This document shows, piece after piece, positions 12,799 to 28,974 of a stretch of DNA of 51,055 bases (the stretch's first letter is position 1; every line of letters starts with the position of its first letter). The DNA is from an uncultured Acidobacteriota bacterium. Lineage in GTDB: Bacteria > Acidobacteriota > Vicinamibacteria > Fen-336. The stretch covers positions 20,860-71,914 of the forward strand of contig CADEEV010000024.1 of the NCBI GenBank assembly GCA_902826455.1, given 5' to 3'. The notes beneath the pieces are model-generated. The model was not told the origin of the DNA and made no database searches. It worked only from the letters and a program-made list of their open reading frames with translations. Both the position numbers and the translations under genes were made by a program.

Positions 12799-14358
12799 CT
12801 ATTCCGATCGGGGCGAGCGGCCTCGCGCCGACAAGGCCGCGGCAGTCGCGAGCGCGGCCAGCGCCCCGATCACCGCCACGCCGACGGCGCTCGTCCAGTC
12901 GGCGACGCTCACCGGACGGACCAGCGGGATCGCAGCTCCGATCCAATCGAAGCCCTTGCCGGCTCGCGACGCCTTGGCGGCAGCCACCAGCGCCAGGCTC
13001 ATCAGGCTCGCGAGCCAGGCCCCGGCCCCGATCAGGAGCGCCCAACCCAGACGCTCCACCCGACCGAGCCGCCGCTGGCCGTTCGCGGCAGCCACGTGGA
13101 ACTCCGGCTCACGGACACCCCAGGGCACGAAGCGCTGGAGCATCACCATGCCCGGAATGCCCGTGACCACGGTGAAGATGAAGAAGTCCCGCCAGCCGAT
13201 GGCGTCGGCCAAGAGACCCGCGGGAGGACCCGCGAGGACCCGCGGCAGCGTGAAGAGGCTCGACAGCAGGGCGTACTGCGTGGCCGAGAAGCGCTTCTGG
13301 GTCAGCCTCAGCAGCAACACTCCGAAGGCGCCGTTGCCGAGGCCGCTCATCAGGTACTCGAAGCCCTGGGCGCCATACATGATCGGCCGGTTGACGCCGA
13401 CCATCGCCACGAGGGCGTAGCCCAGGTTCGAGAAGATCTGGAGGAATCCCGAGATCCAGAGCGCCGGCCCGAGGCCCCGGCTCTGGGTGAGCAGCCCGCC
13501 CAGGAAGGTGCCGACCAGGATGGCCACGAGACCGACGGTTCCGCCGGCGACGCCGATGTCGAAGGCGTTGTAGCCCGTCTGCACCAGGAACGGGCCGGTG
13601 AGCGCCTGAGTGAGGTTGTCGCTCAGCTTGAAGAGCGCGACGAAGGCGAGGATCTCCAGGGCCCGGTGCTGCCCCAGCAGGTCGACGAACGGCTCGAACA
13701 CTGCCTCCTGCAGGGTTCGGGGCGGCGCGGCTGGAGCTTCCGGCTCCGGAGCCAGCCACGTCACGATCGCCGTGGGAACGTAGAGGAGTGCCGTCGCGAG
13801 GGTCACGAAGGGCCAGCCGGTCCGGCCGGCCAGCGTGATCGTGAGGCGCCCGGAGATCCACATCGCGGCACGGTAGAGCGCGACGCGCGCCCCCACGGCC
13901 GGCCCGTGTTCGTCCTTCCGCAGCACCTCCACCGTGTAGCCGTCGTAGGCGATGTCCTGGGTCGCCGACGCAAACGCAATCGCGAGCGTGATGATGCCCA
14001 CGGTGACGGCATGAGGATCACGCGCTTCGGCGGCCAGCCACAGGCCGCTGGCGAGCAGAGCCAGCTGACTGAGGAACATCCAGCCGCGCTTGCGCCCGAG
14101 CAACGGAAGCGGGTAGCGGTCCATGAGCGGGGACCAGAGAACCTTGAAGCTCCAGGGCGCCTGGGCCAGGGAGAAGAGCCCGACGATCTTGATGTCGACG
14201 CCCACGCTCGCCATCCACGTCGGGATCGCGATCCACACCAGCCCGAGAGGCAGTCCCGATCCGAAGGACAGGAGCGCGACGGAGGCGAGACGCCAGCTGC
14301 CGGCCACCGCGCACAGGCTCTGCCACGTGCTGAGCCGCGGCGCGCTGGCGCTGGACAT
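12799..14358 (-). CDS. MFS transporter, AmpG (muropeptide permease) family
   Basis: Integral membrane transporter of about 519 residues with 12-14 hydrophobic helices. AmpG/PAT-family features include [20 protein letters not shown] near the start, [25 protein letters not shown] (conserved loop 2-3), and [15 protein letters not shown] (AmpG-type Q-D-I-A-x-D-G). AmpG imports anhydro-muropeptides for cell-wall recycling; the substrate here is inferred. Two in-frame starts exist. ATG 14358 is preferred because TATGCT at 14374-14369 would start transcription near 14362; ATG 14373 would add five residues. It is divergent from lysC with only ~49 bases between starts. It could also be a general acetyl-CoA/sugar transporter of the same superfamily. 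Confidence 0.8.
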
Positions 14359-14382
14359 ATGGGGCGGCAGCATAGCACCGGT

Positions 14383-14388
14383 TACAAT
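14383..14388 (+). promoter_or_regulatory. -10 box (TACAAT) of lysC
   Basis: TACAAT lies 20 bases before the GTG at 14408, with CGGAGG immediately after as ribosome-binding site. No consensus -35 is visible. The leader would be only ~13 bases, which leaves no room for a lysine riboswitch. Confidence 0.45.
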
Positions 14389-14407
14389 CGCGGCCCGGAG
14401 GCGCGCA

Positions 14408-15592
14408 GTGGCTGTCGTCGTTCAGAAGTATGGCGGATCTTCCGTCGCGGACGTGGACAAGATGCGCGTCGTCGCCGACCGTGTCGCGAGCCTCAAGGCC
14501 TCCGGAAAGGACGTCGTCGTCGTGGTTTCCGCCATGGGCGATACCACGGACGAGCTCCTGGCGCTGGCGCGGAAGATCAGCGACAACCCCGCGCGACGCG
14601 AGCTCGACATGCTCCTCACTGCGGGTGAGCGGATGTCGATGGCGCTGCTCTCCATGGCCCTCAACGATCGTGGCGTGCCCGCCGTCAGCTTCACGGGCTC
14701 GCAGTCCGGCATCATCACCAACGACGCCCACGCGAACGCACGCATCGTCGAGGTGCGACCCTATCGCATCCAGGACGAGTTGGCGCAGGGACGCGTCGTG
14801 ATCGTCGCCGGCTATCAGGGCGTTTCGTACCGCAAGGAGATCACGACCCTGGGGCGCGGGGGCTCGGATACCACGGCGGTCGCTCTCGCCGCGGCCCTGG
14901 ACGCCGAGGCCTGCGAGATCTACAGCGACGTCGCGGGAATCTACGGCGCCGATCCGCGCGTGGTGCCGGGGGCGCGCCGGCTCTCGGAGATCTCCTACGA
15001 GGAGATGCAGGAGCTCGCGGAGCATGGCGCGCGGGTGCTGAACGCCCAGGCCGTGGAGTTCGCGAAGGATCGCGGCATCGCGATCTACGCGCGCGCCACG
15101 TCGGGGGACCCGGGCGAGACCGTCGTCCGGCGCTTCCCTCCCAAGGCCCCGGGACGGGTCGTGGGCGTCACGAGCGAGGCCGGCCTCGTGCTCCTCAGCC
15201 TGCCCGACGAGCGACTCGACGAGCTGCTACGGGTCTTCGACGACTCCCAGACGGGAGGCAAGGAGCTGCTGCACCGCGCAGGCGCGCCGGGTCTCACCTC
15301 GATCGTCCTTTCGGTCGAGAACGTCCCGGACTTCGCTCGCCTTCGGGAGACGCTGACGAGGCGTTTCGGGAGTGCGCTGCAGATCAGGGAAGGCGTGGGC
15401 GCCGTCTCGGCCATCGGCGCGGGCATCAACGCCCGCTATGGGAACCTCAGGACGGCCCTGGCCGTCGTGGCGGAGGCCGATGCTTCGCTGCACGGCGTCT
15501 CGACCTCCAGCTTCCGGATCAGCCTTCTGCTCGACGAGGCCATGCTGGCGCCCGTCGTCCGGGCTCTCCACGAACGACTCGTGGCCACGTAG
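14408..15592 (+). CDS. lysC: Aspartate kinase
   Basis: Phosphorylates aspartate, the first step towards lysine, threonine, methionine and diaminopimelate. 394 residues from GTG 14408 with CGGAGG at a good distance. The kinase domain shows [67 protein letters not shown] and [17 protein letters not shown]. The C-terminal third holds two ACT-like units, the second with [14 protein letters not shown] and [17 protein letters not shown]. The first ACT unit lacks the usual DKPGVAA-type turn, so feedback control by lysine or threonine may differ. Monofunctional; no fused homoserine dehydrogenase. Stands alone, convergent with the AAA+ regulator (14-base gap). Confidence 0.95.
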
Positions 15593-15606: not shown

Positions 15607-17910
15607 TCAGCCGAGACGGTACTGCCGCATCTTCACGGCCAGCCCCTGTCGGCTGATGCCGAGGCTCGCGGCCGTTCGCGTACGGTTCCCGCCGTTCTGG
15701 GTCAGTGACCGTGAGATCAGCTCCCGCTCGAAGGAGGCGCGTCCCATGCGCAGCGCCGCTTCGGTCCGGACGGGCGTCGACGCGATCACGAGGTGCTCCC
15801 TGCGCAACGGGCCTCCCGCAGCCATGACGACCAGCTGGTTCACCACGTTCTCGAGCTCTCGGATGTTGCCCGGCCAGGAGTGGCGGCGCAGGTCCTCGGC
15901 CAGATCGCGTCCCAGCGTGGGGCACGGACAGCCCTCGCGCTCGGCGGCGAGCTTCACGAAGTGCCGCGCGAGCAGCAGGATGTCGTCGCCCCGCTCGCGC
16001 AGCGGCGGGAGACGAAGCGTCAACCCCGCCAGCCGATACAGAAGGTCCTGGCGAAACGCCTTTTCGGCCACGCGCTCGCCGAGAAGGACGTTCGCCGCGG
16101 AGATCACGCGCACGCGCACCTGACGGGTCTGCGTCTCGCCGACTCGGCGATACTCCCCCGACTGCAGGAAGCGCAGGAGCTTCGCCTGCCCCCGTGCGCT
16201 CAGATCGGCGACCTCGTCGATGAAGAGGCTGCCGCCGTCGGCCTCGGCGACGTGACCGCGCCGCTCGACGACCGCTCCCGTGAAGGCGCCGCGCGCGTGA
16301 CCGAACATCTCCGCCTCGAACAGCTCGTCGCTCAGGGACGAGGCGTTGACGGCGACGAACGGTCCCCTCGCCACGGAGGAATGCCGGTGAAGGGCGAGCG
16401 CCACCTTCTCCTTGCCGGTTCCGGTTTCCCCGAACACGTGCACGGGGAGCAAGGTGCCGGCGGCTCGCGCCATCTGTTCGAAGAGGATCTCGAGGCCCTC
16501 GGAGCGCCCCACGATCTCGGGGAACCGCGGGGGAGCCGCGACGACCGGCTCGACCGCCAAGGCCCGTGCGGGCCGCGTGAGCTCCGCGAGATCCGCGCTC
16601 GCCATGGCCACCAGGCGCTGGTCCCCCCAGGCCTTCAACTCCGCCATCGCACGCGCCACGACAGGAGCGTCGCCCGCATCGCCCCGGGCCAGGCATAGCC
16701 CGAGCTGGGCGGCAGCGGCGAGACCGCTGCGGGCCTGCGCCAGCTCCCTCGCCTTCTCGAAGCGGTCGGTCGCGGCGTCGCGCGCCGACCGGAGGAGCAC
16801 GCGTCCCTCCGCCAGCAGCGCGAGCAAGCCCACGTCCGGCCGGCAATCGGGCGCCCCGCGCACTGCTCGCTCCGCCTCGTGAAGCGCCCCGTCGCAGCGC
16901 TTCTGGGCCAGCAAGGCGTGGACGCGGCGGACTCGGGCACGACACTCCCCGTCCGCGGAGAGGACGAGGGCGAAGTGCGCGAGGGCCTCCTCCGCTGCGG
17001 CATCCGCGAGTACGGGCTGCCCCGCGGCGAGCTCGAGGTCGGACGCGAGCAGGGCATGCTCGGCGAGCACCCACGGCGACGAATCGGAACCTGCGGCGTC
17101 CCGCGCCTGCGAAACCGCCCCACGGACGGCGTCCAGGTCGCCCTGAGCGAGGTCGATCATGGCGCGTCGGGGAATGGCGAGAACGCGCTCTCGGGGATCC
17201 CCGAGCTCACGGAACAAGGAGATCGCGCCGTCGAAGTCGCGGCGGCCTTCCTCCCAACGACCCAGGAGCGCCAGGAGGTCGCCCCGGTCCATGCGCGCCT
17301 CCGCCATGAGGTCGAGGCGTGTGCTGGCGGAGACGATCTCGAGACGATGTCCCAGGACGCCCAGGGCCTCGGCGAACCGCCCTTCGCTGCGCAGGACGCT
17401 CGCTTCGATCTCGAGGGCCCGTCCCAGGCCGTCGGGCGAGCCGCACGCGGCATGAATGGTCCACGCCCGGCGGATACACTCGTGCGCCGCGTCGAGCGCC
17501 TGATCACGCGCGTGCAGCCTCGCCTCCGCTTCTGCGCAGAGTGCGCGCGTCGGCTCCGACGCCGCCGTCGCGGCGGCCCGCTTGAGCTCGGACCAGGCCG
17601 CCTGCACGCGGCCCGTCATGAACAGGCCGTGGCTCCTGACCAACCGGAGGCGGGTCTCGACGTCGGCATCGTGACAACGCGCCAGGGCGCGCGTGACGAT
17701 CGCGAGAGCCTCGGCGAAACGGAGGAGCGGCAGCAGCGCCTCGGCTTCCTGGAGGGCGAGGTCGAGGGCTTGGCCGCCGCGCGCGGCGCGCCGCGCCGTT
17801 TCCACCGCGTCGGCGTGGCGGCCCACCGCCACAGCCGCGGCCATCTGCCAGCGGCACAAGGCTCCACTCATGGCGACGCGTGTACGGGCTGTCACGAGGG
17901 GCGTTGTCAT
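15607..17910 (-). CDS. Sigma-54-type AAA+ activator with N-terminal TPR-like region and Fis HTH
   Basis: Transcription factor of 767 residues. Residues ~15-470 are Ala/Leu-rich helical repeats of TPR type and replace the usual receiver or GAF sensor. The AAA+ domain follows: Walker A GETGTGKE near 492, the sigma-54 contact loop GAFTGA near 540, Walker B GGSLFIDEVA near 560, and HSWPGNIRELENVV. The last ~40 residues form a Fis-type helix-turn-helix (NRTRTAASLGISRQGLAVKM). Intact GAFTGA indicates it can activate sigma-54 holoenzyme. ATG 17910 is chosen because GGGAGG lies six bases upstream; upstream frame continues only as a shadow of the divergent gene. It is divergent from the three AP-superfamily/TPR genes, its likely targets, though no clear -24/-12 promoter is visible there. 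Confidence 0.88.
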   Translation of the reverse strand: MTTPLVTARTRVAMSGALCRWQMAAAVAVGRHADAVETARRAARGGQALDLALQEAEALLPLLRFAEALAIVTRALARCHDADVETRLRLVRSHGLFMTGRVQAAWSELKRAAATAASEPTRALCAEAEARLHARDQALDAAHECIRRAWTIHAACGSPDGLGRALEIEASVLRSEGRFAEALGVLGHRLEIVSASTRLDLMAEARMDRGDLLALLGRWEEGRRDFDGAISLFRELGDPRERVLAIPRRAMIDLAQGDLDAVRGAVSQARDAAGSDSSPWVLAEHALLASDLELAAGQPVLADAAAEEALAHFALVLSADGECRARVRRVHALLAQKRCDGALHEAERAVRGAPDCRPDVGLLALLAEGRVLLRSARDAATDRFEKARELAQARSGLAAAAQLGLCLARGDAGDAPVVARAMAELKAWGDQRLVAMASADLAELTRPARALAVEPVVAAPPRFPEIVGRSEGLEILFEQMARAAGTLLPVHVFGETGTGKEKVALALHRHSSVARGPFVAVNASSLSDELFEAEMFGHARGAFTGAVVERRGHVAEADGGSLFIDEVADLSARGQAKLLRFLQSGEYRRVGETQTRQVRVRVISAANVLLGERVAEKAFRQDLLYRLAGLTLRLPPLRERGDDILLLARHFVKLAAEREGCPCPTLGRDLAEDLRRHSWPGNIRELENVVNQLVVMAAGGPLRREHLVIASTPVRTEAALRMGRASFERELISRSLTQNGGNRTRTAASLGISRQGLAVKMRQYRLG

Positions 17911-17974
17911 GGGCATCCTCCCTACGTCATCGAGCGTGCACTTTATGGATAGCCCGGGCACGCTCGCGTGGGGT

Positions 17975-18021
17975 TGTGACGCTCCGGCGACTGTCACACG
18001 CTCTCGGGCGTGGGCTATCAT
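17975..18021 (+). promoter_or_regulatory. Promoter and inverted repeat upstream of the AP-superfamily operon
   Basis: TGTGAC (17975-17980) and GTCACA (17993-17998) form a perfect six-base inverted repeat with a 12-base spacer. The right half occupies the -35 position for TATCAT (-10, 18016-18021; 17-base spacer). The layout suits an operator overlapping the promoter, shared with the divergent regulator gene. Confidence 0.45.
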
Positions 18022-18031
18022 CGCGGCCTGG

Positions 18032-20311
18032 ATGGCGCTGCGCATCCCCTTCCGGCGGGCCGGCGCCCTGGGCCTGCTGGTCCTGTCGACAGCGGTGTCC
18101 TGCGCCCGCCCCCCCGCCGTGCCCGCACCGGGCCCGAGCGTCGTCCTGTTCGGCATCGACGCCGGGGACTGGGAGGCGATCGATCCGCTCACCCGGGCAG
18201 GAGAGCTGCCCAACCTGGGCCGGCTGCGCGCGCACGGACGGACCGGCGTCCTCCGAGCCGAGCCTCCTCTCGTGTCGCCGATTCTCTGGACGACGATTGC
18301 CACGGGGCGGCCCGCCGACGAGCACGGCGTCCTCGACTTCGTCGTGGACCTGCCAGGCGGAGGACAGGCCCCCGTCGCCGCGACGAGCCGTCGTGTGCCG
18401 GCGCTCTGGAATCTGTTCTCGCGGGCGCGGCGCTCCTCCGCCGTGATCGGCTGGTGGGCGACCTGGCCCGTCGAGACCATCGTCGGCACCATCGTCTCGG
18501 ACCGTGTCGCGCCGCAGCTCACCCGCGCCCTCCCGGAGATCGACGCCGGCAGCGTCTTCCCTGCTTCCGCGATCGGTCGCTTCAACCCGCTCCTCGTGTC
18601 CGCGGCCTCGATCACGACCGAAGAACTCATGGAGCACGTGCCGGTCGCAGCCGCCCGCGTGGCGACGGCGCGCGCCGGCCTCGGTCGGAACGAGGGCGCG
18701 TTCTATGCCGACCCCGTCACGCACCTCGCTGCGACCGTGGCCGCAACCCGCACCTACGGTGCGATCGCCGAAGAAGCGCTCCGCAGCGATCGCCCGGCGC
18801 TGCTCGCCGTGTACTTCGAGGCCGTCGATACGGTGTCGCACCGATTCGTGCGCGATGGAAGCCTGGGACCGGCCGCCATCTCGGCCGCATACCGGGACGT
18901 CGACGCCGTGCTGGGTCGCCTCGCGAGGGCGGCGCCTCCGGACGCATGGTTCGTGATCTGCTCCGATCACGGGTTCCACTCCGCCTCGGCCGACGTTCGC
19001 GAGGACCCCGCGAACCTGACGGGGCCCGCCACCGCCTGGCACCGGCCCTACGGCATCGTGGGCGCGATTCGCGCGGACGTGCTCGCCGGTCACGCGAACG
19101 GCGTCGCGCGCGACGTCGGGCTCGTCTCCCCGCTCGACATCGCTCCCACCGTGCTCACAGCGGCGGGCCTGCCTCCGACGACCCGCATGACGGGGCGTGT
19201 AGTCGACGGGCTCGTTCCTGACGGCGGGGCCGCCGCGACCGCTCCTCGGGTCGAGGTGCCCGACGCGGCGCCTCAGGGCACAGCCGCGCGTGGACCGCTC
19301 GACGCCGAGGTCGAGGCGCGGCTCCGGGCCCTCGGCTACGTGGGATCGACGCCCTCTTCCTTGGCGCGCCTCAACCTGGCGGAGGCTTTGTATCGCCGCG
19401 GCCGGCTCGATGCGGCGGCACGGGAGCTCCGTGCCCGCCTCGAATCCAGGCCCGACGACCTGAGCGCGCTCCTTTGGTCCGCCCGGATTGCCGCGGATCA
19501 GGGGCGTGCCGCCGAAGCCATGGTCTTCTATGCGCGAGCGGCTCGGGTTCCCGGTTCTGCGGCTGACGTTCTCGTGCCCGCCGCGACCCTCGCGGCGCGG
19601 TCGGGCCTCGCAACCGCCATGGAGCCGATCCTCGCGGACCTGTCCGAGGCCGAGCGCACGAGCGCGCCCGCGCGCACGGCTCAGGGCCTCCTGGAGCTCT
19701 CGCGACGGCGTCCGCGGGACGCCGAGCGCGAGTTTCGCGCGGCGCTCGCGCGCGACCCTGCGTTTGCCGAGGCGTTGACCGGCCTGCTCGAGCTCCTGGC
19801 ATCCCAGGGGCGCGCCGCCGCAGCCGTACCGGTCCTCCGCCGGGGCGCCGAGCGCGCACCGCACTCCCCGCGGCATCTGGCCCTCTATGGCGCGGCCTTG
19901 CTTGGGGCGCGGAGCCCCGGCGAGGCGGAGCAAGTCCTCGCCTCCGCCTTGCGTCTCGCTCCGGACGGCGACGCCGTGCGCGTCGACCTGGCGCGCGCGC
20001 AACTGGGCCTGGGAAAAGCCGCGGCTGCACTCGACGTCCTGGGCCCGACGGCTCCCTCGATGGAACGGGCCCTCTTGCGCGGCGCCGCCTTCTCGCTCCT
20101 GGACCAGTGGCCGGCGGCCTCCGCGGAGTACCGCTCGGCCCTGGCCCTAGCACCCCAGCCCGGCATCGATCTCTTGAACGCCCTGGCTTGGGCCGAGCTC
20201 AAGCAAGGCCGCACGAAGGAAGCGGCCGCGCTGCTCGACCGCTCCCTGGGCCTGCGTCACGATCAGTCCGAGATCGCGCGGCTTCGCGCCTCGCTGCGGG
20301 GGCGCTCTTGA
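18032..20311 (+). CDS. Lipoprotein with type I phosphodiesterase/AP-superfamily domain and TPR repeats
   Basis: First of three coupled genes; 759 residues. N-terminus is a lipoprotein-type signal (GLLVLSTAVSC, Cys24). Residues ~35-400 are an alkaline-phosphatase-superfamily domain: metal-binding Asp43 in LFGIDAGDWEAID, predicted nucleophile Ser82 in SPILWTTIATGRPADEHGV, and CSDHGFHSA with SPLDIAPTVL. Residues ~440-759 are TPR-type helical repeats (RLNLAEALYRRGRLDAAARELR, LNALAWAELKQGRTKEAAALLDRSL). It likely hydrolyses or transfers a phospho-group on the envelope surface while the TPRs bind partners. Start ATG 18032 is set by the -10 at 18016. A farther in-frame ATG (17945) lies upstream of the promoter. 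Substrate unknown. Confidence 0.8.
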   Translation: MALRIPFRRAGALGLLVLSTAVSCARPPAVPAPGPSVVLFGIDAGDWEAIDPLTRAGELPNLGRLRAHGRTGVLRAEPPLVSPILWTTIATGRPADEHGVLDFVVDLPGGGQAPVAATSRRVPALWNLFSRARRSSAVIGWWATWPVETIVGTIVSDRVAPQLTRALPEIDAGSVFPASAIGRFNPLLVSAASITTEELMEHVPVAAARVATARAGLGRNEGAFYADPVTHLAATVAATRTYGAIAEEALRSDRPALLAVYFEAVDTVSHRFVRDGSLGPAAISAAYRDVDAVLGRLARAAPPDAWFVICSDHGFHSASADVREDPANLTGPATAWHRPYGIVGAIRADVLAGHANGVARDVGLVSPLDIAPTVLTAAGLPPTTRMTGRVVDGLVPDGGAAATAPRVEVPDAAPQGTAARGPLDAEVEARLRALGYVGSTPSSLARLNLAEALYRRGRLDAAARELRARLESRPDDLSALLWSARIAADQGRAAEAMVFYARAARVPGSAADVLVPAATLAARSGLATAMEPILADLSEAERTSAPARTAQGLLELSRRRPRDAEREFRAALARDPAFAEALTGLLELLASQGRAAAAVPVLRRGAERAPHSPRHLALYGAALLGARSPGEAEQVLASALRLAPDGDAVRVDLARAQLGLGKAAAALDVLGPTAPSMERALLRGAAFSLLDQWPAASAEYRSALALAPQPGIDLLNALAWAELKQGRTKEAAALLDRSLGLRHDQSEIARLRASLRGRS

Positions 20312-22476
20312 AGCGCGTCGGCGTCGTCGTGCTGCTCGTGGCGGCCGCGGGCGCCGGCGTCCTGTCCTGGCGTCGGCCCCTCGAGCCGCGGCGTCCGGCG
20401 CGACCCAACGTTCTCCTCGTGACGGTCGACACGCTCCGCGCCGATCGCCTCGGCGCCTACGGAGCCACGTTCGGCGCGACGCCGAGTCTCGACCGGCTCG
20501 CGACGCGAGGCGTGCGGTTCGCGACGGCCATCGCTCACGCTCCCCTGACGGCGCCGTCACACGCGTCGATCCTCACGGGCCTGCTGCCGCCTCGCCACGG
20601 AGTGCGCGAGAACGGGGCCTTCGTCCTGCCGGCGGGCCTCCCGACCCTTGCGGAGCGCTTCGCGGCCGAAGGCTATCGCACGGCCGCCTTCGTCTCGGGC
20701 TTCCCCCTGGATCACCGCTTCGGCCTCGGACGCGGATTCGTCCACTACGACGACCAGCTCCCCCATGGCAGCGATCCGCGACGCGCGCCGTATGTCGAGC
20801 GGCCGGGCGATGCGACGACCGAGGCCGCGCGGCGCTGGATCCGCGGCGCCGGCGGGTCGTGGTGTGCGTGGATCCATTACTTCGACCCCCACGCGCCCTA
20901 TGAAGCCCCCACCCTTGTCGCGGCGCGCTTTCCGGGCCACCCGTACGAGGCCGAGATCGCGTTCGTCGATGCGAGCCTCGGCGACCTCCTCGACGAGCTC
21001 GAGACGCGCGAGCCCGGCCGCACCCTCGTGCTCGTGACCGCCGATCACGGCGAGGGCCTCGGCGACCACGGCGAGGCCACGCACGGCGTGTTCCTGTACG
21101 ACTCGACCTTGCGCGTCCCGTTCTTGCTCGCCGGTCCGGGCGTGGACGCCGGAAGGGTCGTGGAGACGGTGGCGCGCGGCGTCGACGTCCTGCCGACGCT
21201 GCTCGACCTCGCCGGCCTACCGCCGTTGCCCGCGAGCGACGGCCGCTCCCTCCGGCCGGCGATCGAGGGCCGCGCAATGGCGGACGCTCCTACGTATTCG
21301 GAATCCCTGTTCGCCAGCCTCAACCTCGGCTGGGCGCCGCTCCACTCCTGGCGCACGCGCTCGCTCAAGCTGATCGCCGCCCCGGTGCCGGAGCTGTTCG
21401 ACCTCGCGAGCGATCCCCACGAAGAGCACGACCTTGCCGCTACGCGTCCGGAGAGCGTGACAGAACTGGAACGCCCTCTCCACGCCGCGCTGGCGGCTCC
21501 TGCGCCCGACGCGGCCTCGACGCAGAGCCCCGATGCGGCCGAGCGACTGCGGGCCCTCGGCTACCTGGCGGGGTCGGCGCCCACGACCCGGAGAAGCCTC
21601 CGCGACCCCAAGGCGGGCCGGGAGATCCTGCAGCTTCTCGAGCGGGGCCTCGCCGAGGCGCGGGCGAACCCGGGCATGGCTATCGATGCCCTCAGCGCCG
21701 TCCTGGCGGCGGAGCCCGACATGCCTCTCGCCCGCCGCTACCGGGCGATCGCCTTCCAGATGGCCCGGCGGCATCGCGAGGCCCTGGCCGACCTGAAGCG
21801 ACTCGAGAGCAATACCGCTCCCAACCTCGAAGACCTGATCCTGCTCGGCGAGACCCAGCGCCTCGCCGGCGACAAGGAGTCTGCCCTCGCGACGTTCGAC
21901 CGCGCGCTGCGCTTCGCTCCGGGCGCGCCCGAGCCCCTGCTGTTTCGGGCCCGGGCCTTGCGCGCCCTCGAACGCCGTCCCGAGGCCGAAGCCGGTTTCG
22001 AGGCGGTCCTCGCCGTGGATCCCAACAACGCGGAGGCGCGGCGCGGTCTGGGAGAGCTGGCTCTCGCGGCCGGCGACGTGGATCGGGCCGGCTCCCTCTA
22101 CGAGCGCCTGCTCTCGGACGACTCGCAGGACGTGGGCGCCATGATCAAGCTCGGCGTGGTTCGGGTTCGCAGTCAACGCCTTCCCGAGGCGCTGCGGCTC
22201 TTCGAGGCCGCCGTGGCTCTTGAGCCCCGCAACGCCGAGGCGCTCGTGGATCTCGCCGGGGCCCTCGCCAAGAGCGGCCGGCCGGCCGAAGCCGTCTCGT
22301 ACTTCGAGCGTGCCCTGACCGCCGGCGGCGAGACGACCTCAGCCCTCAACGGGCTCGGCTTCGCCCGGCTCGAGGCCGGAGACGGACCGGGCGGCCTGCG
22401 CGCGTTGCGCCGTTCCTTGTCCCTCGATCCCCACCAGGCGCCGTTGGTCGCAGTCGTCAAGGAGTTGTCCCGGTGA
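20308..22476 (+). CDS. Membrane-anchored sulfatase-fold (AP superfamily) protein with TPR repeats
   Basis: 722 residues. Start is TTG 20308, overlapping the previous stop as TTGA; no ATG lies nearby and the N-terminal hydrophobic anchor (about 4-21) begins directly. The sulfatase-like domain shows PNVLLVTVDTLRADRLGAYG (Asp41), APLTAPSHASILTG with Thr81 at the nucleophile position, HYFDPHAPYEAP and TADHGEGLGDHGEATHG. Sulfatases need Cys/Ser-x-Pro-x-Arg for formylglycine; here it is Thr-Ala-Pro-Ser-His. Phosphoethanolamine/phosphoglycerol-transferase chemistry is therefore more likely than sulfate hydrolysis. Residues ~480-722 are TPRs (AEAGFEAVLAVDPNNAEARRG). Active site should face the periplasm. 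Confidence 0.82.
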   Translation: MKRVGVVVLLVAAAGAGVLSWRRPLEPRRPARPNVLLVTVDTLRADRLGAYGATFGATPSLDRLATRGVRFATAIAHAPLTAPSHASILTGLLPPRHGVRENGAFVLPAGLPTLAERFAAEGYRTAAFVSGFPLDHRFGLGRGFVHYDDQLPHGSDPRRAPYVERPGDATTEAARRWIRGAGGSWCAWIHYFDPHAPYEAPTLVAARFPGHPYEAEIAFVDASLGDLLDELETREPGRTLVLVTADHGEGLGDHGEATHGVFLYDSTLRVPFLLAGPGVDAGRVVETVARGVDVLPTLLDLAGLPPLPASDGRSLRPAIEGRAMADAPTYSESLFASLNLGWAPLHSWRTRSLKLIAAPVPELFDLASDPHEEHDLAATRPESVTELERPLHAALAAPAPDAASTQSPDAAERLRALGYLAGSAPTTRRSLRDPKAGREILQLLERGLAEARANPGMAIDALSAVLAAEPDMPLARRYRAIAFQMARRHREALADLKRLESNTAPNLEDLILLGETQRLAGDKESALATFDRALRFAPGAPEPLLFRARALRALERRPEAEAGFEAVLAVDPNNAEARRGLGELALAAGDVDRAGSLYERLLSDDSQDVGAMIKLGVVRVRSQRLPEALRLFEAAVALEPRNAEALVDLAGALAKSGRPAEAVSYFERALTAGGETTSALNGLGFARLEAGDGPGGLRALRRSLSLDPHQAPLVAVVKELSR

Positions 22477-24533
22477 AACGGCGGCCTGAGCCCGACACGC
22501 CGCCGCGCCGGCCATCCTCCGCCCGCTGGCTCGGGGCAGCAGCTCTCGCGATCATCGCTGTCGGCGTCTTCGGGTGGCTGCGGCGGCCCGCGAGCGGGCC
22601 TCCGGCCGATCCGCCCCTCGACCTGCTGCTCGTGACCCTGGACACGACCCGGGCCGATCACCTCGGGTGCTACGGGTACGCCCCGGCCCGCACGCGCCGG
22701 CTCGATCAGCTGGCGGCCGAAGGCGTGCGCTTCGAGCGCGCCTACGCCAGCGCGCCGATCACCCTGCCCGCCCACGCCTCGCTGTTCACCGGGCTGTATC
22801 CCTTCGAGCACGGCGTCCGGAACAACGGCAACTTCTACCTCGCCGACCGCTACGAGACCCTGGCCACGACCCTCCACGCGCGCGGCTACCAGACGGGCGC
22901 CTTCGTGAGCGCGTTCGTCCTGGACCGGCGCTACGGCCTCGCCCGCGGCTTCGACGTCTACGACGACCGCATGGAAGGCGCCCAGCGCCAGGTCCTCACC
23001 CTCGAGGCCGAGCGCCGGGGCGATCGCACGGCCCTCGCGCTGTCGCGTTGGCTCGAGAGCCGCGCGTCGTCGGAGCGGCCGATCTTCTCGTGGCTCCACC
23101 TCTACGACCCTCACGAGCCCTACGCGCCGCCCGGCCCCTTCCGCGAGGCCGTGCCGGGATCGCCCTACGACGGAGAGATCGCCTTCGCCGATGCCGCCAT
23201 CGCGTCGATCCTGGACAAGCTGCGAGCGCTCGGCCGTCTCGATCGCACGCTGGTCGCGGTGGTGGCGGATCACGGCGAGAGTCTCGGAGAGCACGGCGAA
23301 GAGACGCACTCGATGTTCGTCTACGAGAGCGCGATCCGGATCCCCTTCCTCTTGTGGCGGCCGGGACGGCTCCCGACCGGCAAGGTCGTCACTCAGCCGG
23401 TGCGCGGCATCGATCTGACGCCGACCCTTCTCGACATCCTGCGTGCGCCGCCTCTGCCGACGTCCCACGCGCGCAGCCTCGTTCCGCTGATCCTGGGTGC
23501 TGCGGAGGGTGGCGCCGAGCCGTCCCACGCCGAGACGCTCCTGCCTCAGTTCTACATGAACTGGGCGCCGCTCCGGACCCTGGTCGACGAGCGCTACAAG
23601 CTCATCGACGCGCCGCGTCCCGAGCTCTACGACCTGCGCGAGGACCCGGGCGAGACGCGCAATCTCTACGATGCGCAGCCCGAGACCGCGAAGGCGCTCC
23701 GGGCCGAGCTCGAGCGGCTCACGGCGGGCAGCGCCGGCGCCATGAGCCTGTCTAGCCTCGATCGCGAGGCACTCGAGAAGCTCTCGGCTCTCGGCTACGT
23801 CGGCGCCAGCCACGACGCGGGCGTGACGGCCACCGCGTCGCGCGTCGACCCCAAGGACATGATCGGCGTCTTCAACCGCCTGCGCCGGGCGAACGGCGCG
23901 GTGCGCGACCGCCGCTTCGCGGAGGCGCTGCCCATCCTCCAGGAAGTCCTGCGCGACGAGCCCCGCAACGCCTTCGCACAGCTCGTGCTGGGCAGCGCCT
24001 ACATGGGCCTCGGACGGTTCGGCCAGGCGCTCGCCCAGTTTCGAACCTACGTGGGGCTGGTCCCGACGAGCTCCTACGCCCACCTCTGGATGGCCATCTG
24101 CCATCTGAACCTGGGCGCACGCGCGGAAGCGCTGCGTGAGGCGGACGCGGCCCTCGCGCTCGACCCGAAGTTCACCGACGCCCGCGTCCTGCGCGCCGGC
24201 GTCCTCGCGACGGAAGGGCGGCATGCCGAAGCGATCGCCGAGCTGCGCAGCGCCGTCGCGACCGATCCGGCCAAGGCCATGGTGCGCCTCGACCTGGCGA
24301 AGGTGCTGGCCGAGGCCGGCCAGGCCGACGAGGCGCGACGCGAGTACGACGCGATCCTCGCGCAGGAGCCCGACTACGCCCCGGCACTCGTGGGCCGCGG
24401 CGCGCTTCGGGCGCGGGCCCGCGACGTCGCCGGCGCCGAAGCCGACCTGCGGCGCGCCCTCGAGATCGACCCGACCCAGGACAGCGCCCGTGAGAACCTG
24501 GCACTGCTGCTGAAGGCACAGGGCCAGAAATAG
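22473..24533 (+). CDS. Membrane-anchored sulfatase-fold (AP superfamily) protein with TPR repeats
   Basis: 686 residues from GTG 22473, overlapping the previous stop as GTGA. Same architecture as its neighbour: short basic/proline-rich start, membrane anchor (about 19-36), catalytic domain, TPR tail. Motifs: LLLVTLDTTRADHLGCYGY (Asp57), APITLPAHASLFTG with Thr97 at the nucleophile position, HLYDPHEPYAPPG, VADHGESLGEHGEETHS. TPR section ~470-686 (AQLVLGSAYMGLGRFGQALAQF, VRLDLAKVLAEAGQADEARREY). The two sulfatase-fold genes look like diverged duplicates. Followed by an 11-bp hairpin at 24536. Role inferred as envelope group transferase or hydrolase. Confidence 0.82.
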   Translation: MKRRPEPDTPPRRPSSARWLGAAALAIIAVGVFGWLRRPASGPPADPPLDLLLVTLDTTRADHLGCYGYAPARTRRLDQLAAEGVRFERAYASAPITLPAHASLFTGLYPFEHGVRNNGNFYLADRYETLATTLHARGYQTGAFVSAFVLDRRYGLARGFDVYDDRMEGAQRQVLTLEAERRGDRTALALSRWLESRASSERPIFSWLHLYDPHEPYAPPGPFREAVPGSPYDGEIAFADAAIASILDKLRALGRLDRTLVAVVADHGESLGEHGEETHSMFVYESAIRIPFLLWRPGRLPTGKVVTQPVRGIDLTPTLLDILRAPPLPTSHARSLVPLILGAAEGGAEPSHAETLLPQFYMNWAPLRTLVDERYKLIDAPRPELYDLREDPGETRNLYDAQPETAKALRAELERLTAGSAGAMSLSSLDREALEKLSALGYVGASHDAGVTATASRVDPKDMIGVFNRLRRANGAVRDRRFAEALPILQEVLRDEPRNAFAQLVLGSAYMGLGRFGQALAQFRTYVGLVPTSSYAHLWMAICHLNLGARAEALREADAALALDPKFTDARVLRAGVLATEGRHAEAIAELRSAVATDPAKAMVRLDLAKVLAEAGQADEARREYDAILAQEPDYAPALVGRGALRARARDVAGAEADLRRALEIDPTQDSARENLALLLKAQGQK

Positions 24534-24535
24534 AA

Positions 24536-24560
24536 CGGGCGGGGCCGACGGCCCCGCCCG
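24536..24560. terminator. Strong GC hairpin between convergent operons
   Basis: CGGGCGGGGCC - GAC - GGCCCCGCCCG gives an 11-bp perfect stem with a three-base loop, two bases after the stop of the third AP-superfamily gene and ~26 bases from the stop of the convergent TonB receptor. No T-tract on either strand, so it may act as a Rho-aided or bidirectional transcript end. Confidence 0.6.
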
Positions 24561-24585: not shown

Positions 24586-27447
24586 CTAGAAGCGGAAGCG
24601 CACTCCGAACTCCGCCTGCCGCTGGCTGTTCGGGACCACCTGCGTCGGCGTCCCGAAGTTGTTCGCGGTGTAGATCACGTTGAAGCCCTGGTTGGGGTCC
24701 ACGAGGAAGTTCACGTGGTTCGTGATGTTGAACATCTCGAACAGCACCTCGACCGACTTGTCCTTCGCGAACGTGAAGGACTTCGAGATGCGGGCGTCCA
24801 GGGTGAAGAACGAGCCGTCCTTGCCGTCGAACTGCGAGAACTCGGCCGTGCCGAGCGGGTTGAACTCGCGGAACGAGTTGCGGGGGAACGGCCGACCCGT
24901 GGCCGGATCGTTGGCGCGCAGACCGCTGCGGGCGCCGGCCGCCACAAGCGCGCCCGAGTAGGGCTTGCCCGTGTTCCACTGCATGGCCGACGACACCTGG
25001 AAGCCGTGCCCCAGGTCGAACACGCCGGCGCCCGTGACGCGGTGACGGATGTCATCGGCCGAGTAGCCGTAGTCCCCCTCGAAGTCGAGGTTGGTCAGGT
25101 CTCCGGGCTGTGAGCCGAAGTCGTTGGCGATGTTCTTCGCCGTGGACCAAGCGTAGGTGCCCAGGATCTGGGTCCGCGACGTGCGGTACTTGCCGGCCAC
25201 GTAGACCGCGTCGAAGTTGGAGTGACCCCGGTTGCCCTCGATGCGCAGCGCGCCCAGGTTGGGAGCGAAGACCCCCGCGGGCGAGATCCGCGTGCTGAGG
25301 TTCTGGGCGTTGTTGATCTGCCAGCGATGCACCTGGTTCTGGCCCGTGGTGTGGACGTAGTCGACGTCGAAGGCCAGGCTCTTCCCGGGCTGCACCGAGA
25401 ACCCGCCCGTGAAGTGGTGCGCCTGCGGCTGCACCAGATCGGGGGCGGTGATGCGCGTGAGCTGACCCGCGAAGGTCGGGTCGAGGAGCGAGTTGCGGAT
25501 CGCGTCGGCGTTGGCCGCGTACTGGAGCGGCGTGAACGGCGGCGGCGACAGCGTCAGGAAGTTGAGGGCGGAAGCCGGGTCGCTCCAAGCCTCGTAGAGC
25601 GTCACGTTCTGGAAGATCTCGTCGTAGTACTTGCCGTACCCGCCACGGATCACGAGCTTCGAGTTGCCGTTCACGTCGTAGGCGAAGCCGACGCGGGGAC
25701 CCACGTTGTTCTTGTCCTGCACGTTCTGGCTCGGGAAGCCCGCGGCGGCGAGAGCCGTCTTGCCGACCGGGTTGAACTTGTTCGCGTAGGGCCCCTTCTG
25801 GATCTCGTAGCGCACGCCCAGGTTCAGGGTCAGGCGCGGAGTGGGCTTCCAGTCGTCCTGGAGATACCCGGCGAGGTACGTCCAGTCGTCGTCGGCTTCG
25901 TTGGTGCCGGCCGACCCGGTCCAGGTGTCCGCGATGCCGTTGAGGTACGCGTTCACTCCGCCCGGGCGCTGGGTGTTGAAGATGAAGTTGCCGTACAGCG
26001 TAGGAATGAAGAACCCGCCGTAGTGAGAGGCGAGCACCTCCGCGCCGACCTTGAAGTCGTGGTCGCCCGCCCAGCCCTCCTTGCGGAACGAGAAGTCGTC
26101 ACGCACCTGGAGACGCTTCTGGATCGTCTGCTGCGGCGTGTTGCCGCTGGCGCCGAAGGTGAAGTCCGGGGTCACGACCTGGGGGTTGCTGTTGTCGTTC
26201 GCCACCAGGTTGTTCGTGAAGTGCTGGTAGAGCACGACGAACTCGTTGAGCTTGCTGCTGCCCAGCACCGTGGTGTTCTTGAGGATGCCCGAGTGGATCT
26301 TGTTCGTGTTGAGAGCACCCGCCGACTCCAGGATGTTGCCGCCCACGAAGTCGTTCTCGCGCTTCTGGTCCTCGAGGGAGTACCGCACGTAGGCCGAGTT
26401 GTTGGCGCTCACCTGGAAGTCGACCTTGCCCGTGAACAGGTGGTTGCGGAAGGGCTTCGCGACGGAGCCCTCCTCGTCGGGCAGGACGCCGTTGGTGGTG
26501 ATCTGGGTCTGCTCGTTGCGCCGGTTGCGCTCGTAGGACAGGAAGAAGTGCGCCTTGTCCTTCGAGATCGGCCCGCCGATCGTGCCGCCGAACTGCTGCT
26601 GGTCGAAGTCGGGCTTCTCAGCGTTCGCCTGCTCCTCGAAGAAGGTGCGGGAGTTGAGGCGCTGGTCACGGGCGAACAGGAACGCCGTGCCGTGGAGATC
26701 GTTGGTCCCGCTCTTGGTGATGACGTTCACGACGCCGCCGACCGACCGGCCGTACTCGGCGCTGTAGCGGTTCGTCGTGACCTTGTACTCCTGGATTGCG
26801 TCGGAGCTGAACTGCTGGAGCAGCCCGCGCACGACGCCGTCGTTGTTGTCGCCGCCGTCGACGTTGATGATCACCGAACGGCCGGTGCCGCCCGAGAAGC
26901 TCACCCCGCCGACCTCGGTCTTCGTCGGGTCGTAGTAGCTGGCGGAGCGCGTGCCCGGCACCAGGAGCGACAGATCCTGGAACTTGCGACCGTTGAGCGG
27001 GATGTTCTCCACGAGCTTCTGCGTGATGACCTGGCCGACGTCCGACGTGGTGCTCGAGACGAGCGGCGTCTCGCCGGTCACCGTGATCGTCTCCGCCTGC
27101 TGGGAGACGGACATCGAGAAGTCGGCCGTCGCGGTCGAAGAGACCTGCACGATCACGCGGCGGGCCTGCTTGCCGAAGCCCGTGAGCTCGGACGTGACCT
27201 CGTACTCGCCGGCCGGCAACGATCCGATCCTGAACGTTCCGTTCGCACTGGACGTGACGGTGCGCGTGAGACCTGTGCCGACGTTCCTGGCCGTGATCGA
27301 CGCGCCCGGGACCGCCGCCTTCGTTTCGTCGAAGACACGGCCGTCGATGCTGCCCGCGTCGCTCTGCGCCCAGCTCGAAGCTGGGACGAGTGCGACAACC
27401 GCGGCCAACAGCGCGAAGATCGCGAAACGAAGTCGCGATGCGTTCAT
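24586..27447 (-). CDS. TonB-dependent receptor, Oar-like, with N-terminal carboxypeptidase-regulatory domain
   Basis: Outer-membrane receptor of 953 residues. Signal peptide (FAIFALLAAVVALVPASSWA), then an Ig-like carboxypeptidase-regulatory domain (GSIDGRVFDETKAAVPGASI to FRIGSLPAGEYEV), a plug domain (VITQKLVENIPLNGRKFQDL, EYGRSVGGVVNVITKSGTN) and a long beta-barrel closing with GVRFRF, an outer-membrane insertion signal with terminal Phe. Oar-like receptors import large or glycan ligands using TonB energy. ATG 27447 is chosen because GGAGG lies upstream; an in-frame ATG at 27519 lacks one and would spoil the signal peptide. The tyrosine- and asparagine-rich barrel makes it less GC-biased than its neighbours. 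No TonB/ExbBD nearby, but the anti-sigma factor at 11397 ends in a TonB-C-like domain. Confidence 0.92.
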   Translation of the reverse strand: MNASRLRFAIFALLAAVVALVPASSWAQSDAGSIDGRVFDETKAAVPGASITARNVGTGLTRTVTSSANGTFRIGSLPAGEYEVTSELTGFGKQARRVIVQVSSTATADFSMSVSQQAETITVTGETPLVSSTTSDVGQVITQKLVENIPLNGRKFQDLSLLVPGTRSASYYDPTKTEVGGVSFSGGTGRSVIINVDGGDNNDGVVRGLLQQFSSDAIQEYKVTTNRYSAEYGRSVGGVVNVITKSGTNDLHGTAFLFARDQRLNSRTFFEEQANAEKPDFDQQQFGGTIGGPISKDKAHFFLSYERNRRNEQTQITTNGVLPDEEGSVAKPFRNHLFTGKVDFQVSANNSAYVRYSLEDQKRENDFVGGNILESAGALNTNKIHSGILKNTTVLGSSKLNEFVVLYQHFTNNLVANDNSNPQVVTPDFTFGASGNTPQQTIQKRLQVRDDFSFRKEGWAGDHDFKVGAEVLASHYGGFFIPTLYGNFIFNTQRPGGVNAYLNGIADTWTGSAGTNEADDDWTYLAGYLQDDWKPTPRLTLNLGVRYEIQKGPYANKFNPVGKTALAAAGFPSQNVQDKNNVGPRVGFAYDVNGNSKLVIRGGYGKYYDEIFQNVTLYEAWSDPASALNFLTLSPPPFTPLQYAANADAIRNSLLDPTFAGQLTRITAPDLVQPQAHHFTGGFSVQPGKSLAFDVDYVHTTGQNQVHRWQINNAQNLSTRISPAGVFAPNLGALRIEGNRGHSNFDAVYVAGKYRTSRTQILGTYAWSTAKNIANDFGSQPGDLTNLDFEGDYGYSADDIRHRVTGAGVFDLGHGFQVSSAMQWNTGKPYSGALVAAGARSGLRANDPATGRPFPRNSFREFNPLGTAEFSQFDGKDGSFFTLDARISKSFTFAKDKSVEVLFEMFNITNHVNFLVDPNQGFNVIYTANNFGTPTQVVPNSQRQAEFGVRFRF

Positions 27448-27780
27448 CTCTTTCCTCCAGGTGGAGTTGAATCCGTTGAACGTAGAGGCCTCCCCGAGGC
27501 CCCGGTGTTTCGGAGACATCGCGGCTTGCTACGGCAAGGGCTGTGCCCGGAGACGTGCCGGCGCGAAACTCTGCAACACACAGAACTAAAGAGTGTTACG
27601 AGAAGTCAAACGTCTGCACATCGAGACATTCCAATAATCGGTAGATTCGACTCCATAACACCGTAGGCAATAGTCCCATTATCGGACATGCCACGCCTCG
27701 TTCTTGACACCCGGCGACCTCGTGGCCTACTCTCCCGGATTCGCTCCCCCGCCCTGTCGCTGGAGAGACTTCAGACATCA
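27448..27780. other. 333-base divergent intergenic region, locally AT-rich
   Basis: The longest gene-free stretch in the window, between the TonB receptor (minus) and aroC (plus). It holds an AT-richer core (about 27570-27690), two similar 11-base elements (CCAATAATCGG at 27631 and CCCATTATCGG at 27675, 9 of 11 matching, starts 44 bases apart), a minus-strand TTGACT (27609-27604) without a well-spaced -10, and the aroC promoter at 27704. No ORF or RNA gene recognised. Confidence 0.5.
27704..27733 (+). promoter_or_regulatory. Promoter of the aroC-bamD operon
   Basis: Perfect TTGACA (27704-27709), 18-base spacer, TACTCT (27728-27733). Predicted start near 27740 gives a leader of about 40 bases to ATG 27781. 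Confidence 0.6.
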
Positions 27781-28974
27781 ATGCTGCGATACCTCACCGC
27801 CGGCGAATCCCACGGACCCGCGCTGACCGTCGTGGTCGACGGCCTTCCCGCGGCGGTTCCCGTGGACCTCGACGCCATGGCCTTCGATCTCAAGCGCCGT
27901 CAGGGCGGCTACGGGCGCGGCGGCCGGATGAAGATCGAGAGCGACAGCGTCGAGGTGCTGTCGGGCGTCCGCCACGGCCGGACCCTGGGGAGCCCGGTCA
28001 CCCTGCAGATCCGGAACAAGGATTTCGAGAACTGGCGGGACGTGATGTCCCCTGCCCCCCAGCCTCCGGCCGCGACCCGGCGCCGTGCGCTCAAGCACCC
28101 GCGACCCGGCCACGCCGATCTCGCCGGCGCCATGAAGTTCCTGACCGACGACCTCCGCAACGTCCTCGAGCGCGCGAGCGCCCGCGAGACGACGGCTCGC
28201 GTCGCGGCGGGCGCGCTGGCGAAGGCGGTGCTCCGGGCCTCGGGCGCCGAAGTGCGCAGCCACGTCCTCCGTATCGGCGACGCCGCCCTCGGCTCCGAGC
28301 CCGTGTCTTGGGAGACTCTCGACGACGTCGAGTCAAGCAGCGTGCGCTGCGTCGACGGCGCGGTCTCGGGCGCGATGGTCGCCGCGATCGACCAGGCGAA
28401 GCGGCACGGCGACAGCCTCGGCGGCGTCTTCGAGGTGATCGCCAGAGGTCTGCCGCCCGGCCTCGGCTCCTTTTCCCAGTGGGATCGCCGGCTCGATGGA
28501 CGGATCGCCCAGGCCCTGATGTCGATCCACGCCGTCAAGGCGGTCTCCCTCGGCGCCGGCTTCGAGGCCGGTGCCACGCCGGGGGCGCGCTTCCACGACG
28601 AGATCCTCTACGACGACAGCCACGGCGGGCTACATCGCGGCAGCAACCGTGCCGGCGGCCTCGAGGGAGGCGTGACGAACGGCGAAGAGTTGCGCGCCCA
28701 GGCCGTCGTGAAGCCCATCCCCACCCTGCTGATGGGCCTGCGCTCCATCGACATGCGGACCAAGGAGCCACGCACCGCGTCCGTCGAACGCAGCGACACC
28801 TGCGTCGTCCCGGCGGCCGGAGTCGTCGGCGAGGCCATGCTGAGCCTCGTCCTGGCCGACTCGCTGCTCGAGAAGTTCGGTGGCGACTCCCTGGACGAGT
28901 ACCTTGATCACCTCGAAGCCACGCGGACGCGGACCCGTGAGTTCCTCGCGCGCCGCCCGCCGGCCGAAGAGTAG
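27781..28974 (+). CDS. aroC: Chorismate synthase
   Basis: Converts 5-enolpyruvylshikimate-3-phosphate to chorismate with reduced FMN, the last common step to aromatic amino acids. 397 residues. Signatures: MLRYLTAGESHGPAL, RRQGGYGRGGRM, HPRPGHADLAGAMKF, ASARETTARVAAGA, and SNRAGGLEGGVTNGEEL with PTLLMGLRSIDM. The length fits the longer bacterial form. First gene of a nine-gene tightly packed operon; peptide deformylase begins five bases after its stop. No other shikimate genes are in view. Confidence 0.97.
   Translation: MLRYLTAGESHGPALTVVVDGLPAAVPVDLDAMAFDLKRRQGGYGRGGRMKIESDSVEVLSGVRHGRTLGSPVTLQIRNKDFENWRDVMSPAPQPPAATRRRALKHPRPGHADLAGAMKFLTDDLRNVLERASARETTARVAAGALAKAVLRASGAEVRSHVLRIGDAALGSEPVSWETLDDVESSSVRCVDGAVSGAMVAAIDQAKRHGDSLGGVFEVIARGLPPGLGSFSQWDRRLDGRIAQALMSIHAVKAVSLGAGFEAGATPGARFHDEILYDDSHGGLHRGSNRAGGLEGGVTNGEELRAQAVVKPIPTLLMGLRSIDMRTKEPRTASVERSDTCVVPAAGVVGEAMLSLVLADSLLEKFGGDSLDEYLDHLEATRTRTREFLARRPPAEE

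Follow-up and report, generated by a model that had tools for sequence, protein, structure and literature searches.

A conserved acidobacterial gene block joins TPR-tailed proteins of the alkaline phosphatase superfamily to an Oar-like outer-membrane receptor

Closest described systems

The described systems closest to the locus analysed here are enzymes of the alkaline phosphatase (AP) superfamily and loci built around TonB-dependent receptors. The locus lies in a stretch of 51,055 nucleotides from an uncultured Acidobacteriota bacterium (the window) and contains three consecutive genes, AP1, AP2, and AP3, beside a receptor gene, TBDT. S1 sulfatases and phosphonate monoester hydrolases (PF00884, e.g., 6hr5 and 4uph) resemble AP3 in fold and in the metal Asp, and the D-H-G-E region of AP2 and AP3 is as in the phosphonate hydrolases. 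Compared with S1 sulfatases, however, AP2 and AP3 have a Thr nucleophile instead of formylglycine derived from Cys or Ser and a His instead of the signature Arg, and they add a C-terminal TPR superhelix and an N-terminal anchor. EptA/MCR, LtaS, and YejM share with AP2 and AP3 the membrane anchorage, the position of the Thr nucleophile, and the D-H pair, but the latter have one TM helix and a TPR tail and are closer overall to the sulfatases. The NPP phosphodiesterases (PF01663) are like AP1 in the position of the Ser/Thr nucleophile and in the invariant Asp and His residues, whereas AP1 is lipoprotein-like and carries a long TPR tail.

On the receptor side, Oar of Myxococcus xanthus, which is needed for protein export (PMC6434023), has the CarboxypepD_reg N-terminus and TonB-type barrel also found in TBDT, which differs in being paired with AP-TPR genes. 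The utilisation loci with SusC-type TonB receptors are alike in placing a receptor by predicted periplasmic hydrolases and in forming many paralogous loci per genome. They differ from our cassette in three respects: no SusD-like gene was recognised on inspection of the cassette neighbours, the cassette enzymes belong to the AP superfamily and have TPR tails, and some loci have a CarboxypepD_reg-TPR adaptor instead. We found no description of TPR-sulfatases with TonB receptors in Acidobacteriota in the open literature searched.

A four-gene block

An earlier note on this DNA had described three genes of the same build (membrane anchor or lipobox, AP-superfamily domain, TPR tail), coupled by short overlaps and divergent from a regulator, here called REG. 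This description is accurate. The build is seen in AP1 (whose lipobox, STAVSC, is weak), AP2, and AP3; AP1 and AP2 share TTGA (20308-20311), and AP2 and AP3 share GTGA (22473-22476); and all four genes lie within 15607-24533, with 121 bp between the divergent starts of REG and AP1 (Table 1).

Table 1. Positions in the window of the genes and sites discussed in the text.
Feature	Position	Strand	Description
AmpG-family MFS transporter	12799..14373	-	Ancestral left-hand neighbour of REG
Aspartate kinase ORF	14123-15592	+	Between the AmpG gene and REG
REG	15607..17910	-	TPR-like N-terminus (about aa 8-445), sigma54-interacting AAA+ (GAFTGA), Fis HTH
TGTGAC...GTCACA pair, putative REG operator	17975..17998		Hexamer enriched upstream of REG orthologs
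Sigma70-like promoter candidate for AP1	17993..18021	+	GTCACA-17-TATCAT
AP1	18032..20311	+	Lipoprotein-like; PF01663 phosphodiesterase domain, Ser at nucleophile position; TPR tail
AP2	20308..22476	+	Single N-terminal hydrophobic membrane anchor; PF00884 sulfatase-fold, Thr at formylglycine position; TPR tail
AP3	22473..24533	+	Anchor helix 19-36; PF00884 sulfatase-fold, Thr97; TPR superhelix 460-682
Terminator-like site	24536..24560	-	GC-rich hairpin then T-rich stretch; separates AP3 from the convergent receptor gene
TBDT, Oar-like outer-membrane receptor	24586..27519	-	CarboxypepD_reg PF13620 and barrel PF25183; cassette partner
aroC (chorismate synthase)	27688..28974	+	Ancestral right-hand neighbour of REG

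A fourth gene, absent from the earlier note, is convergent with AP3 and lies 52 bp past its end. Its product, TBDT, begins with a signal-like stretch followed by a CarboxypepD_reg domain and a TonB-type barrel, which is the composition of an Oar-like TonB-dependent receptor. The two convergent genes are separated by a terminator-like site, a kind of site that overall is not more frequent than expected by chance.

The four genes recur together. The related genome G005 encodes AP1-AP2-AP3 and the convergent receptor in the same order and orientation (50/58/66/61% identity), at a site away from REG and aroC, and this is the one true ortholog of AP1 among 60 relatives. The acidobacterial contig JAHECP010000068 carries AP2, AP3, and the receptor (53/66/59%), the AP1 side being lost at the contig end. 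AP1-AP2-AP3 and the Oar-like receptor are one cassette, and the partner of the triplet is the receptor, not REG. Of the interpretation in the earlier note, the architecture and the notion of a coupled envelope module stand, the triplet being a real unit that recurs as a block, but the regulator is not a member. We hold the structural and genomic statements, taken as a whole, with high confidence.

The receptor link across loci

Sulfatase-fold genes of the source genome that score >300 bits with the AP2/AP3 model were taken as members of a subfamily, which comprises 14 genes at 10 loci. A PF25183-type Oar-like receptor is nearby at all 10 of these loci and at none of 20 other sulfatase-fold loci, a few of which are at contig ends (Fisher p about 5e-8, computed with 19 other loci). 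The TPR tail follows the same division: it is detectable in 13 of the 14 subfamily genes and in none of the genes of the 20 other loci. We also compared 80 database loci, which are best matches rather than a random sample and of which many lie on short contigs. A fused TPR tail was found in 77 of them and at least two subfamily genes in 27-29, while 38 have a receptor where roughly 5 would be expected (an estimate from about 26 per 5.26 Mb). No receptor was found in the available DNA of 42 of the 80, among them all 14 planctomycete loci. Four more genomes were examined: a tandem AP pair adjoins a receptor in G047, the AP-TPR genes of the acidobacterium G114 are far from its few PF25183 matches, and G035 has many receptors and no close AP relative. 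The receptor link is common in Acidobacteriota, but it is not universal and the receptor is not obligatory. Within the source genome, receptor and AP paralogs showed no co-diversification (Mantel r 0.04, p 0.36); across genomes the two are correlated (r 0.73), a value confounded by phylogeny.

Two further types of genes recur at these loci and are absent from the window. The first, present at about a dozen loci, encodes a small protein (300-450 aa) with CarboxypepD_reg and TPR domains, confirmed by Pfam in two cases and by a custom-built model in the others. It is a candidate adaptor that would suit a bridge between the receptor and the TPR enzymes. Such genes lie near AP-TPR genes and a receptor at L086, L120, L147, L102, L144, and other loci. 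The second, an FG-GAP/UnbV gene, occurs at about ten loci; at L103, L150, L154, and L155, an FG-GAP/ASPIC-UnbV gene stands beside a long receptor (about 1300 aa) and tandem AP-TPR genes.

Fold and catalytic residues

The AlphaFold2 model of AP3 (pLDDT 90.8) matches S1 sulfatases over residues 47-440 (Z 33-41), and AP2 and AP3 both have the predicted S1 fold. The residues that define the sulfatases differ. The formylglycine position is Thr in all 14 proteins of the source genome and in all 115 readable database proteins, and is thus never the Cys or Ser of an S1 sulfatase. The signature Arg of C/S-x-P-x-R is also missing, replaced by His (His101) in 14/14 own proteins and at 113/115 readable loci. 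In the subfamily, His likewise stands for the Asn that follows the metal Asp, and the D-H pair and H279 are invariant. NPP-type phosphodiesterases and EptA/LtaS-type transferases have a Thr at the matching position. It is also present in 16 of 21 readable other sulfatase-fold genes of the source genome and, being this widespread, does not define the subfamily by itself; the marks of the subfamily are the TPR tail, His101, and the receptor link.

AP1 belongs with the PF01663 phosphodiesterases: its Pfam score is above the cut-off, and its nucleophile and metal residues are conserved, with a Ser at the matching nucleophile position and an invariant Asp/His set fitting a two-metal site. A search by sequence found no solved structure for this domain.

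A possible TonB-linked periplasmic system

We tentatively favour, at somewhat short of an even chance, the reading that the cassette is a TonB-linked periplasmic system in which import through the receptor, cleavage or transfer of an ester, and a TPR scaffold are combined. The receptor would import a compound bearing phosphate (or sulfate) esters in a TonB-dependent manner, a direction assumed on the basis that most TBDTs are importers. In the periplasm, the lipoprotein AP1, with its Ser nucleophile and NPP-like site, and the membrane-anchored AP2 and AP3, with their Thr nucleophile, would then act on the ester group by cleavage or transfer. Through their TPR tails, the enzymes may be held to one another or to the periplasmic CarboxypepD domain of the receptor. 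Counting against this reading are the loci without a receptor, the missing co-diversification within the source genome, and the need for Oar itself in protein export. The recurrent genomic partner of the subfamily implies that the receptor should bind what the enzymes act on, which makes the question of the substrate testable. A broader claim, more doubtful still, is that this is an undescribed and widespread acidobacterial system for processing nutrients or the envelope, in which periplasmic AP enzymes with a Thr nucleophile, misnamed sulfatases, would be physically linked to an Oar-like receptor by TPR tails and sometimes by a CarboxypepD_reg-TPR adaptor.

The main rival, which we consider unlikely, is envelope modification: as phosphotransferases of the EptA/MCR/LtaS or BcsG type, AP2 and AP3 would act in the periplasm to decorate the envelope or an exported polymer, and the receptor-like barrel would export or display it. 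The Thr nucleophile, the D-H pair, and the conserved downstream His of AP2 and AP3 are also found in EptA and MCR-1, and residues about 231-298 of AP3 weakly match the NCBIfam models of YejM, MCR, and EptA. However, AP3 has a single TM helix in place of the multi-helix N-terminal membrane domain of this family, every transferase model scores far below its curated cut-off, and the best structural matches of AP3 are S1 sulfatases; no EptA-type structure stands among the Foldseek matches listed, which does not show that there is none. Also in favour of envelope modification are the case of cellulose, where a polymer modified with pEtN goes together with a TPR-bearing outer-membrane protein (PMC11379886), and the requirement of Oar for protein export (PMC6434023).

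The regulator belongs to an older locus

REG has the features of a sigma54 activator: Pfam identifies the sigma54 AAA+ domain (PF00158, 6.5e-55), the AAA lid, and the Fis HTH; the GAFTGA motif is intact; and the source genome has a sigma54 gene. The TPR-like N-terminus proposed in the earlier note is borne out by an AlphaFold2 model, built from 13 orthologs, with ~22 tandem helices at residues 8-445 (pLDDT mostly >90). Pfam called a TPR in the N-terminus of one ortholog and none in that of the window's REG.

Orthologs of REG with the TPR region were found in at least 11 of 60 related genomes. At least 10 related genomes have REG beside ampG/ask and/or aroC-def-fmt-rsmB and lack the triplet, the order being (ECF sigma) - ampG/ask - REG - divergent aroC - def - fmt - rsmB; aroC adjoins REG also in another family of the same class. 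Conversely, G005 (a 99%-complete genome) yielded no TPR region of the REG type, its best match to the REG query covering the AAA+ part only. Orthologs of AP1 and REG did not co-occur in any of the 60 relatives, and none of the 80 related loci has a REG-like regulator nearby (three have some sigma54 activator, none with a REG-type N-terminus). As REG and the triplet are neighbours in no other genome examined, synteny leads us to reject the proposal that they form one unit. Since aroC is found beyond both triplet and receptor in the window, the block was inserted between REG and aroC. By gene order, the window is thus an old REG-aroC locus with a four-gene block inserted, i.e., two things side by side, and REG is an old sigma54 activator of the ampG/ask-REG-aroC locus that probably regulates itself. 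The AmpG and aspartate kinase ORFs (12799-15592) overlap head to head as mechanically called; homology to aspartate kinase begins only at aa 97, and the true start is probably near 14400.

In the regions upstream of 14 REG genes (window included), 0.43 occurrences of TGTGAC/GTCACA are expected and 15 were seen, frequently in pairs with 17-19 bp between them. Visual inspection had brought up the motif ahead of the count, which makes the nominal p value optimistic; the excess is nevertheless large. The enrichment upstream of REG also holds in genomes that lack the triplet, and the motif is absent upstream of AP1 in G005; the pair in the window is best read as REG's own putative operator. The -10 context GCTATCAT of the candidate AP1 promoter recurs upstream of AP1 in G005. 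The putative operator overlaps the -35 of this promoter, so REG may affect AP1 incidentally, and an accidental control of AP1 in the source genome alone is possible. An imperfect 23-bp inverted repeat (17948-18019) flanks the TGTGAC/GTCACA pair and gives REG and AP1 similar divergent promoter-like sequences, with GGGCTATC on both sides.

It is improbable that the TPR domain of REG serves as a signal sensor through which REG activates the divergent triplet. The closeness of the divergent starts, with the hexamer pair inside the gap, speaks for such control, as do kinase-TPR-sigma54 regulators situated near AP1-type genes in another acidobacterial family. Against it stand the synteny, the distribution of the hexamer, and the failure to find a convincing -24/-12 site upstream of AP1; in the whole window, such sites gave 58 matches against 58.6 expected. 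In a single distant acidobacterial family, AP1-type PDE-TPR genes have very large regulators nearby (L225, L237, and L238; also L231 and L236). The composition kinase-AAA-TPR-(GAF)-sigma54-Fis was confirmed for two of these regulators; one large regulator has an HD-GYP-like gene as its neighbour.

Annotation as sulfatases

Genes of the subfamily match Pfam Sulfatase and will probably be taken for signs of organosulfate metabolism in Acidobacteriota and Planctomycetota. The catalytic residue disagrees: only Cys and Ser can be converted to formylglycine, and a Thr in its position makes sulfatase chemistry unlikely. Least probable, therefore, is an ordinary sulfatase locus with AP2 and AP3 serving organosulfate uptake, for which the Pfam match and the S1 fold speak and which we reject on the residues (Thr for Cys/Ser, His for Arg, His for Asn). 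A cluster of the order PDE - sulfatase - sulfatase - PDE with Cys-type sulfatases (CSPSR) and adjoining AP1-type genes, and with no receptor, is encoded at G000:C1:114000-120300 (L195).
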